From assembly GCF_022808815.1 (NCBI RefSeq), contig NZ_JAKZLC010000004.1, forward strand, positions 396,536 through 460,535: a stretch of 64,000 nt of DNA, given 5' to 3'. Below, piece after piece: positions 48,265-55,778 of the stretch. A program made the position numbers and the translations under genes. A model generated the notes under the pieces. The model had not been told where the DNA came from. It was given only the letters and a program-made list of their open reading frames with translations, and made no database searches. How positions within the stretch are numbered: the first letter of the stretch is position 1; every line of letters starts with the position of its first letter. Source of the stretch: Geothrix paludis (GTDB lineage Bacteria; Acidobacteriota; Holophagae; Holophagales; Holophagaceae).

Positions 48265-48388
48265 GCCTAACGAATGTGGCTAACCGGCACCGCCTGCACC
48301 GAGGCGCTGAGCGGAGCCGAGGAAGCGAGACGTTGAGAGAGAGCGGAAGACAATGCAGGCGGGGTCCGAGTTGAGCTAAGGGTTAGGC
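48265..48388 (-). repeat. attC site
   Basis: 124 bp, cores GCCTAAC and GTTAGGC. It provides the TAA stop of the TspO gene. Confidence 0.94.
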
Positions 48389-48880
48389 GAGGATGTGGGG
48401 ATTGCTTTTCCATACTGCCCAGGTGAGAACGGAAGCGAATGACACCCAGGCTAAATAGGGGATAAGCAAAGCACCCGCAAAACGATTTCGGTGCCAGAAC
48501 ATAAATGCGGTGGCGATGATCAACAGCCACAAAAATAGGATCTCGGCGAAGGCCAGGGCGCCGAGATGGCAAACAAAGAACAACCAAGTCCACAGGGCAT
48601 TTACGGCTAGTTGGAAAACGAATAGAGCGAGCTCGGGACCGGCCTTTCGAAGGCCGTATTCTCGCCATACAAGCCAGGCTGAAATGGCCATCAAGATGTA
48701 GAGAACAGTCCAAACCGGACCGAAGAGCCATCCGGGTGGTGCCCATAGTGGGCGAATGAGCACCTTGTAGAAAGATCCAGCTTGTGCGGAGGCGAGGGCG
48801 CCAAGTGCTGCGGCTGCGAAGCAAATAGAGAGCCATCCAAAGAAGCCTAGAATTTGCTTCGGCATTGGATATTTGGTCAT
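48383..48880 (-). CDS. tspO: TspO/MBR family protein (cassette gene)
   Basis: A 165-residue membrane protein with five predicted helices. Family patterns WAPPGWLFGPVWTVLYILM and ALWTWLFFVCHLG are intact. TspO proteins bind tetrapyrroles such as protoporphyrin and cholesterol-like ligands, and act in stress and porphyrin handling. Its TAA stop lies inside the adjacent attC. It is one of the few well-known families in the array. Confidence 0.9.
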   Translation of the reverse strand: MTKYPMPKQILGFFGWLSICFAAAALGALASAQAGSFYKVLIRPLWAPPGWLFGPVWTVLYILMAISAWLVWREYGLRKAGPELALFVFQLAVNALWTWLFFVCHLGALAFAEILFLWLLIIATAFMFWHRNRFAGALLIPYLAWVSFASVLTWAVWKSNPHILA

Positions 48881-49241: not shown

Positions 49242-49366
49242 GCCTAACGAAGGAAGCTAACCGGGCCCCGCCTGCACCGAGGCACTGAGCGGAGCCGAGG
49301 AAGCGAGAAGCTGAGAGAGAGCGGAAGGCAATGCAGGCGGGGTCCGAGTTGAGCGGAGGGTTAGGC
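49242..49366 (-). repeat. attC site
   Basis: 125 bp, cores GCCTAAC and GTTAGGC; left arm GGAAGCTAACCGGGCCCCGCC has one extra base. Confidence 0.94.
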
Positions 49367-49376
49367 GCGAGAATAA

Positions 49377-49856
49377 TTATAGGATTTCATAAGGGGTCAT
49401 CCACGGGAGGAGTGTGTTTGTTTTTCTTGTGAATAATTGAAACATGTCCACTTTGCGCTCACTTGTGCTGTTCGATCGTGGGAAAGTTTCGATCGGAATC
49501 TTTTCTCTTGGAACAAGGAATAACCTTACGTCCTCAGGATAGACAGCGATAAAACATATATGTGTATATGGATCACTCGGACGAATTGCCATCCAGGCAA
49601 AAATTTTTTTATCATTCGTAATTGATAGAGTTGCCATTTTCACTTCAATTTTTTTATCTTCAAACTCCAGATCGTAACCAAACCTTGAGTTGGGCAGCAG
49701 TTTGCCACCGATGACTTTTTGAGCGAGTTGTTCGCCCACTTTCCCAGCGCCAGCCCTTGGTAATTTTCGCAGCCATTCGTTGGGCTTTCCTGCCCAAAGA
49801 TCGTCCGAATTCTTAATAAATAAAGCTGAAAGCAAGTTCTGAGCTCGAGTAGACAT
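49377..49856 (-). CDS. PD-(D/E)XK-type nuclease-like protein (cassette gene)
   Basis: A 159-residue protein from the ATG at 49856 (a TTG at 49868 is possible). The segment around residues 38-74 has the restriction-endonuclease-like core: GKVGEQLA with E42, then GYDLEF with D62, then KIEVK with E71 and K73. The strand-hairpin-strand spacing agrees with type II restriction and Mrr-like enzymes. No methyltransferase accompanies it, so it may act on modified or foreign DNA, or be inactive. Codon use is clearly AT-richer than the backbone. Confidence 0.6.
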   Translation of the reverse strand: MSTRAQNLLSALFIKNSDDLWAGKPNEWLRKLPRAGAGKVGEQLAQKVIGGKLLPNSRFGYDLEFEDKKIEVKMATLSITNDKKIFAWMAIRPSDPYTHICFIAVYPEDVRLFLVPREKIPIETFPRSNSTSERKVDMFQLFTRKTNTLLPWMTPYEIL

Positions 49857-49906
49857 TTGTTTTCTCAAAATGAAAGAAGGTGGCTTTTACTCTTGGCTGA
49901 GGTAGC

Positions 49907-50030
49907 GCCTAACGAATGAAGCTAACCGGACCCGCCTGCACCGAGGCGCTGAGCGGAGTCGAGGAAGCGAGATGTTGAGAGAGAGCGGCGGGCAATGCAG
50001 GCGGGGTCCGAGTTGAGCGGAGGGTTAGGT
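49907..50030 (-). repeat. attC site
   Basis: 124 bp, cores GCCTAAC and GTTAGGT (T as final pyrimidine). Confidence 0.94.
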
Positions 50031-55017: not shown

Positions 55018-55142
55018 GCCTAACGAAGAAAGCTAACCGGGCCCCGCTTGCGCCGAGGCGCTGAGCGGAGCCGAGATAGCGAAATGCTGAGAGAGAGCGG
55101 AAGGCAATGCAGGCGGGGTCCGAGTTGAGCGCAGGGTTAGGC
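55018..55142 (-). repeat. attC site
   Basis: 125 bp, cores GCCTAAC and GTTAGGC; the left arm has GGGCCCCGCTTGCG, which weakens the long stem. Confidence 0.93.
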
Positions 55143-55778
55143 CTTGTCTCGCTTTTCAATCGCGTTTCTTTGGCCCTCAGGTATGACTGAGCTATACATG
55201 GCTTCGATCTGCTTGGGTTGAGATATCAATGCATCGGTGATGATGTTGACGAGCCCAAACAGTTGAGTTGCAGTGGTGACATCGTCTTTCAAGTCCAACT
55301 GGCCAGGATGCACCGCGTTGTTGCCAACCACACGGACTATATCAAGAGCCTGTTGAATCTTGATCGGTAATCCAAGTTGGACGAGTGTGGCAATGTCGTC
55401 ATTGATGTTCTTACCCGGCTGTTTCAGATGTACACAAAGCTTTTGAATGCACAGGCGAAGTAGAGCGGAGGCTCCTCTTGGAGAGTTTTGCAAAATGGCA
55501 CGAGCTTCTTCAAAGTCGGCGGCGATCTCTTCGGGAAGATCGACATTTGGTGTTGGTGCGAGGTTGGCCTGTGGGAATTTGAGCTCCCCTTCTACCCAAA
55601 ACGACCACTTTCCACACCTATTGCATCGACACATCCAATACAAATCTGATGGACCATACTGATTTTGACCGGCAACGAGATAGGGCTTTCCCCAATGTTG
55701 AGTTGAGAACGCATGGCAGAACGGGCAATTAAACCCATCAAGGAGATACGTCGGAGGTGTGTATGGCACTTGGTGCAT
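55137..55778 (-). CDS. DUF4145-like protein with zinc ribbon (cassette gene)
   Basis: A 213-residue protein. CPFC (residues 18-21) and CRCNRC (50-55) form an N-terminal zinc ribbon. The C-terminal helical region (from ADFEEARAILQNSPRGASAL) with VRVVGNNAVHPG matches DUF4145, a family often found in restriction or defence contexts. No nuclease domain is attached, so the function is open. Stop inside attC. Confidence 0.75.
   Translation of the reverse strand: MHQVPYTPPTYLLDGFNCPFCHAFSTQHWGKPYLVAGQNQYGPSDLYWMCRCNRCGKWSFWVEGELKFPQANLAPTPNVDLPEEIAADFEEARAILQNSPRGASALLRLCIQKLCVHLKQPGKNINDDIATLVQLGLPIKIQQALDIVRVVGNNAVHPGQLDLKDDVTTATQLFGLVNIITDALISQPKQIEAMYSSVIPEGQRNAIEKRDKA

Follow-up and report, generated by a model that had tools for sequence, protein, structure and literature searches.

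An old question is why a restriction enzyme that could kill its host can be maintained when no protective methyltransferase accompanies it, and it is raised anew by a small gene in an integron of the acidobacterium Geothrix paludis. The gene is located in a 64,000-nucleotide stretch of DNA, to which we refer as the window. A preliminary description had labelled it a solitary PD-(D/E)XK nuclease-like cassette, and the label is borne out by family homology, a preserved catalytic tetrad, the modelled fold and the failure to find a partner methyltransferase. Because its Type II kin are paired with a methyltransferase, the loss of modification, or independence from it, is the main point in this case.

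Open reading frame and catalytic residues

The gene consists of a 159-residue open reading frame with an ATG start and without internal stop, for which an in-frame TTG four codons further upstream offers an alternative start (Table 1). In the encoded protein we find GYDLEFEDKKIEVK with the arrangement D62-X8-E71-V-K73, thus confirming the D...ExK core that had been read from the sequence, including the numbering of its lysine. As this motif alone is weak evidence, we base the reality of the frame on the match of its product to the PADLOC profile PDLC03515, on family matches in BLASTP, hhalign and phmmer comparisons and on the low probability of a chance-open frame of this length at the composition of the cassette (p ~3e-4). 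Glu 42, Asp 62, Glu 71 and Lys 73 align with the E/D/E/K residues of 33 methyltransferase-paired enzymes. The catalytic aspartate is preceded by a tyrosine, at a position that is described to vary among known enzymes (PMC11347163). Among 57 columns that are conserved in at least 90% of the paired rows, the cassette protein retains 18 including all four catalytic ones, for which the hypergeometric probability is 0.008 with columns that are not independent, whereas the other 39 differ and the family signatures outside of the active site, FQQxRDQ (in full FQQ(I/L)RDQ), TLW, QH and DTxW (QH...DT.WL), are altered. The preservation of the tetrad amid drifted signature columns argues for a protein that would still work as a nuclease, and the drift outside of the active site for one that may recognize another target.

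Table 1. Coordinates of the nuclease gene, its catalytic codons and related features. Positions without prefix refer to the window; L and G numbers denote extracted loci and genomes, C numbers contigs.
Feature	Position	Strand	Remark
ORF, solitary restriction-endonuclease homologue	49377..49856	-	alternative TTG start 49868
Codon E42, helix glutamate of GxxGE motif	49731..49733	-	E in 33/33 methyltransferase-paired rows
Codon D62, aspartate of PD position (here YD)	49671..49673	-	D in 33/33 rows
Codon E71, E of ExK	49644..49646	-	E in 33/33 rows
Codon K73, K of ExK	49638..49640	-	K in 32/33 rows, R in one
Integron gene cassette, 665 bp	49248..49912	-	bounded by two G|TTAGGC core sites
attC of nuclease cassette	49242..49366	-	repeat families D1/D2; long hairpin
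attC of neighbouring cassette, 5' side of gene	49907..50030	-	repeat families and core sites
Cyanophage family genes	L063:3088-3429, L064:2932-3429, L065:3001-3537		T4-GC 685 in 2/3 records
attC arrays elsewhere in genome	L068 (G000:C6:1-3447), L069 (G000:C7:1-14132), L057 (G000:C2 end)

Relationship to a family of Type II restriction endonucleases

In hmmscan searches, residues 3-119 of the cassette protein are matched by the PADLOC REase_II profile PDLC03515 (E 9.2e-9), and no significant match was found in Pfam, NCBIfam or PHROGs. Comparison by hhalign with 28 proteins of the family, from which the protein itself was excluded, yields a probability of 97.3% (E 2.6e-11) over 139 columns, at an identity of 18-25% to the other 34 rows of the family alignment. 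A first alignment had been made of one phage-contig relative and two others that belong to the same phylum, and two cut-off or broken enzymes (L034 and L045) were excluded from the family alignment and from the tree. In a 44-protein set, phmmer finds 34 locus proteins and a protein of the phage S-BM3 at E <1e-5; not reported from the same set were the family protein P0003, the relatives from S-RIM14 and P-SSM7, two neighbours of the S-RIM14 gene and four BisI-type proteins. P0003 matches the cassette protein in a pairwise BLASTP comparison (E 5e-5). Family members such as the enzymes of Meiothermus hypogaeus (L042) and M. rufus (L016) align over most of the length of the cassette protein and share with it the GxxGE helix, the D-X8-ExK core and the residues Trp 21, Pro 25, Arg 92 and Pro 107, whereas the cassette protein differs in its altered signatures, in being shorter at both ends, in having no adjoining methyltransferase and in being integron-borne. 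Judged by these matches, it is a remote relative of the PDLC03515 family of Type II restriction endonucleases. In the tree it is found on the family side of the split from BisI-type enzymes (support 100/98), where it forms the longest branch and is otherwise unplaced within the family.

Close relatives are rare in the collections searched. With the cassette protein as query, the 93 genomes of its class contain a single match, which is the protein itself, and the 396 genomes of its phylum contain two, itself and one at E 8.3e-4. Neither set contains a homologue that is close enough to test for selection. Neither plasmids, phages nor IMG/VR contain a match to the protein, and in plasmids the same applies to P0002, P0003 and the phage-contig enzyme. 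Searches of PDB sequences with the cassette protein (P0001), P0002, P0003 and the family alignment returned no credible relative, and the protein is not named in any of the titles and beginnings of abstracts that were listed in literature searches. Searched with PDLC03515, seven of the 396 phylum genomes are matched, with the G. paludis gene itself, L003 (which is the same gene as L002), L004, L006, whose enzyme is located at a contig edge with a methyltransferase frame beside it, and L007-L009, which are short matches of 65-68 positions that were not counted as family members.

At 159 residues, the cassette protein is smaller than the full-length bacterial relatives, which comprise 171-197 residues with the starts placed here. 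It lacks about 20 C-terminal residues, corresponding to the GGxL region, and some N-terminal residues of the paired enzymes. These shortened ends may reflect damage rather than streamlining. The length fits a trend described in a review for Type II and Type IV restriction genes, whose size is reduced when they are integron-borne (Darracq et al. 2025 via PMC12409362), although a phage relative of 165 residues is nearly as short, so that short forms are also found outside of integrons.

In one protein of the family, which was recovered twice (L046:603-1193 and L002:1315-1908 on the minus strand) and is paired with a methyltransferase, VEIR takes the place of VEIK; with an arginine in place of the catalytic lysine, this enzyme is possibly inactive.

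Predicted structure and comparison with BisI-type enzymes

A model obtained from the 35-row alignment has a mean pLDDT of 66.6 and a pTM of 0.64, with values of 70-87 for most of the core, whereas a model calculated without alignment (pLDDT 43) was useless. It consists of a helix (residues 34-52) followed by strands at 62-65, 68-80, 83-88, 99-105 and 110-116. When candidates supplied by Foldseek are ranked by VIA-align 2, the highest score is obtained for NhoI (Z 8.3, rmsd 4.7, 117 residues aligned), followed by the DNA complexes of NhoI (Z 7.9; 3.1, 109) and Eco15I (Z 7.9; 3.2, 111), MepB (7.3), Eco15I in its apo form (6.7) and PvuII (6.5), I-Ssp6803I (6.3) and DpnI (6.2), with the latter three listed between 6.5 and 6.1. 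According to the note that accompanies the tool, a Z of about 8 is modest. With the exception of MepB in row 4, the first 18 rows all represent restriction or homing endonucleases. Foldseek itself finds no match in the PDB at E <= 0.001; an unrelated monooxygenase ranks first, and the rows thereafter, none of which is significant, include MepB, NhoI, I-Ssp6803I and SSO0001, which we take to be a Cas4-type nuclease. A search of BFVD returned three significant rows, headed by a protein of the cyanophage S-RIM14 (E 6.9e-6) that comprises 165 residues and thus equals in length the family member at L064. We accept a restriction-endonuclease fold since the many restriction enzymes in the ranking agree with the sequence evidence; its absence from a predicted structure had been named as the observation that would speak against a nuclease, and within the limits of a model of pLDDT 67 the fold is present.

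The fold ranking raised the question of whether the protein belongs to the BisI family of 5-methylcytosine-dependent restriction enzymes (Gm5CNGC), as the best structural rows are the BisI-type enzymes NhoI and Eco15I, the protein size is similar and PADLOC mREase_II profiles give weak hits (E 0.0068 and 0.066). We consider such membership highly improbable and reject it on motif and profile. The active site of BisI enzymes is described as D-X(10-12)-QxK (PMC4926085), with QVK or QIK in NhoI and Eco15I (PMC11347163), compared to D-X8-EVK in the cassette protein. An hhalign comparison with four BisI-type proteins reaches 27.8% (E 6e-4, 59 columns), in an uneven contest of four rows against the 28 of the family alignment, and the tree separates the BisI rows with the support given above. 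The same BisI-type profile detects Eco15I at 9.1e-37 and NhoI at 1.2e-26. According to PMC11347163, BisI enzymes are modification-dependent, carry an (H/R)(V/I/T/M) methyl-sensing motif near their C-terminus and have no methyltransferase, with a single domain that both senses and cuts. The cassette protein thus shares with them its small size, a similar fold and the lack of a partner methyltransferase, but differs in its ExK motif, the spacing of eight residues and the poor profile match. A BisI-type enzyme is found in another genome of the genus (G076, L062:822-1295 on the plus strand; PDLC03209, 175.7 bits), close to a methyltransferase on the minus strand that matches PD-Lambda-5_B (L062:1743-2627, 357.7 bits).

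Methyltransferase partners in the family and in the host

A scan of the genome collection, in which 243 stretches matched the search patterns and 34 were confirmed, identified 34 family loci from many phyla. In all 34, a methyltransferase gene is located upstream on the same strand, a count in which more diverged solitary copies would be missed as the patterns were derived from three rows. These methyltransferases are 57-94% identical to that of the phage contig L012, and in 33 loci the matching region stops no more than about 300 bases away from the start assigned here to the restriction gene, compared to about 750 bases in L038. Pairing extends to L002 and to two phage contigs, L011 and L012, as well as to L004, where the methyltransferase comes from another subfamily. 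The partner in L012 is assigned to the PADLOC family MTase_II PDLC03300 and that in L002 to both PDLC03300 and Pfam N6_N4_Mtase. The PDLC03515 family is of the Type II restriction-modification kind; next to its members in the genomes sampled, a DNA methyltransferase of the N6/N4 type is encoded.

The cassette gene departs from this arrangement, as our searches found no cognate methyltransferase of a Type II system for it. No such gene adjoins the reading frame, and the early remark that the motif occurs without any methyltransferase is thus true for the cassette. In the window between 46.9 and 63.9 kb, none was detected among 12 ORFs, ten of which were compared with Pfam, ten with PADLOC and eight with both; these ORFs instead gave TspO, DUF4145/PD-T7-4 and a GNAT acetyltransferase. 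The search was extended to the genome (3.4 Mb in nine contigs, 96.65% complete) with PF01555, PF02086 and PF00145. With respect to the host's METHYLTRANSFERASES, PF01555 finds one gene genome-wide (C5:187006-188226), PF02086 finds none and PF00145 finds one on contig C1. The gene on C5 belongs to PDLC03325 and not to the partner family PDLC03300, and is matched in 39 of 47 genomes of the genus, its own included, a few of these matches being partial or weak. None of the host methyltransferases found looks like a partner acquired together with the nuclease, which is present in one of 93 class genomes.

For restriction endonucleases that are solitary, Ershova et al. 2012 (PMC3488263) explain the tolerance of the host by a distant methyltransferase, by a lack of expression or activity or by a lack of sites in the host. 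The cassette gene shares with these cases the missing methyltransferase and relatives in which it is located just upstream, but it is integron-borne and far more diverged from its paired kin. A separated restriction-modification system, in which a methyltransferase encoded elsewhere protects the sites of the host, was predicted for 57 of 272 solitary genes (PMC3488263), and the PF01555 and PF00145 genes would be candidates in G. paludis. Based on the searches with PF01555, PF02086 and PF00145, we nevertheless judge this explanation unlikely, in view of the subfamily of the C5 gene and of its occurrence throughout much of the genus compared to the single genome that contains the nuclease.

Relatives on cyanophages

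The phage-contig enzyme has relatives in 24 phage records, one of which is from a marine virus and the others from cyanophages. In the three records whose neighbourhoods were examined (S-BM3, S-RIM14 and P-SSM7), the relatives all match PDLC03515. Within about 3 kb of the genes in S-BM3 and S-RIM14, we found no match to three family methyltransferases, and in P-SSM7 two Dam-annotated genes are located next door. Lone copies of the family, as relatives without METHYLTRANSFERASE, thus seem to occur also elsewhere, on phages. The annotated start of the S-BM3 gene omits an N-terminal part of the open frame.

Integron context

The nuclease gene is part of an integron cassette array, with its own attC, core sites on either side and an integrase in the same genome. 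At the beginning of the array the G+C content falls from about 70% to about 50%, and the ORFs taken as cassette genes are located on the minus strand. The DNA fold of the attC of the nuclease cassette is better on the plus strand, which is the bottom strand of the cassette (z -4.05), than on the minus strand (-3.30). A 23-base attC pattern with up to three mismatches gives 64 hits in the genome, compared to none in a backwards control; of the 64, all but four are located at the end of contig C2 and on C4, C6 and C7 (60 hits). A profile built from 26 attC copies of the window detects 30 sites there, a circular count in which two of the first sites are partial, as well as 21 within 20 kb from the start of C7, five in the corresponding part of C6 and ten at the end of C2. 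The integrase, a 340-residue protein, is encoded on C2 (TIGR02249, 462.1 bits at a cut-off of 265). As the array in the window ends with contig C4, its physical link to the integrase is broken by contig ends. Array edges on C4 and C7 are distal, that on C2 is the integrase edge and that on C6 is proximal; in the first 20 kb of C6, tblastn with the C2 integrase found nothing. This orientation probably reflects at least two arrays, one of them apparently without its own integrase.

Counted from the distal edge of its array, the nuclease cassette is in about fifth place and might therefore be silent. Between 49200 and 50600 we find no sigma-70-like promoter on the strand of the gene; three hits are all on the plus strand, compared to 1.0 +- 1.0 in shuffled sequences. 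Rfam finds nothing in the entire window. The distal location and the lack of a detected promoter are compatible with a relic, a restriction gene that was captured without its methyltransferase and survives unexpressed or inactive while decaying. The shortened ends, the 39 changed signature columns and the lack of a close relative in the collections searched point in the same direction, and according to Ershova et al. (PMC3488263), 99 of the 272 solitary genes are likely fragments and lacking expression or activity is offered as an explanation. Against a relic stand the intact frame, the retention of the four catalytic residues beyond the general drift and a report that the superintegron of V. 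cholerae is mostly not silent (PMC11014356). We regard this account as possible, though doubtful.

A probable stand-alone nuclease in phage defence

The reading that we favour, with moderate confidence, is that the protein serves in phage defence as a restriction nuclease acting on its own. The cassette would encode a compact PD-(D/E)XK endonuclease related to methyltransferase-paired Type II kin, which presumably acts as a dimer that cleaves double-stranded DNA in the presence of Mg2+ and may be kept as a single-gene defence cassette. With no partner methyltransferase found, the DNA of the host must be spared otherwise. The specificity of the nuclease might have drifted from that of the paired enzymes, as most signature residues outside of the active site have changed, so that cleavage would depend on base modification or on sites missing from the host DNA, and low expression from a distal cassette would perhaps help the host to survive. 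We prefer stand-alone defence over a relic, a separated system or BisI membership on account of a PD-T7-4 homologue in the same array, the reduced size and the preserved tetrad. The lack of a detected promoter on the gene strand, the distal position, the shortened ends, the insignificant Foldseek matches and the unplaced position in the tree count against it. Phages whose DNA is modified are presumed to have driven the evolution of orphan modification-dependent enzymes (PMC11347163). As a more speculative and rather improbable extension, capture by the integron may have freed a Type II enzyme that then became a single-gene defence of unreported specificity, modification-dependent and Type IIM/IV-like, in a lineage distinct from BisI, GlaI, DpnI and Mrr, with the methyltransferase-less kin in cyanophages as parallel escapes.

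As a solitary restriction enzyme that has diverged from its kin and is carried by an integron cassette, the nuclease is an ordinary but well-supported find of a kind already known. At least 16 of 179 cassettes of V. cholerae are stated in a review to act against phages (PMC12409362), and the anti-phage cassettes of Darracq et al. 2025, cited therein, resemble the present one as single small genes in a large chromosomal array; they include size-reduced Type II and Type IV restriction genes, and the present cassette differs from them in its Acidobacteriota host. Restriction-modification is also found among integron cassettes of Xanthomonas (PMC12444791), and a survey of integrons in metagenomes, which does not use the word 'restriction', names COG0863 methylases as well as endonucleases, the latter assigned to other Pfam families, as frequent genes of cassettes (PMC7370490). 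The present case adds an example outside of Vibrio, from Acidobacteriota, to chromosomal integrons as stores of small anti-phage genes, and the 34 genomic loci that keep a methyltransferase can be set in a testable comparison against copies without one, namely the diverged gene of this cassette and some genes of cyanophages. That integron cassettes carry anti-phage genes had been suggested as a theme for this locus, and it fits with the PD-T7-4 homologue, a 213-residue cassette ORF on the minus strand at 55137-55778 (PADLOC PDLC04109, 274.5 bits, E 1.2e-82) that also matches Pfam DUF4145. Another cassette, at 48383-48880 on the minus strand, encodes a membrane protein of the TspO/MBR family (PF03073, E 2.5e-42).
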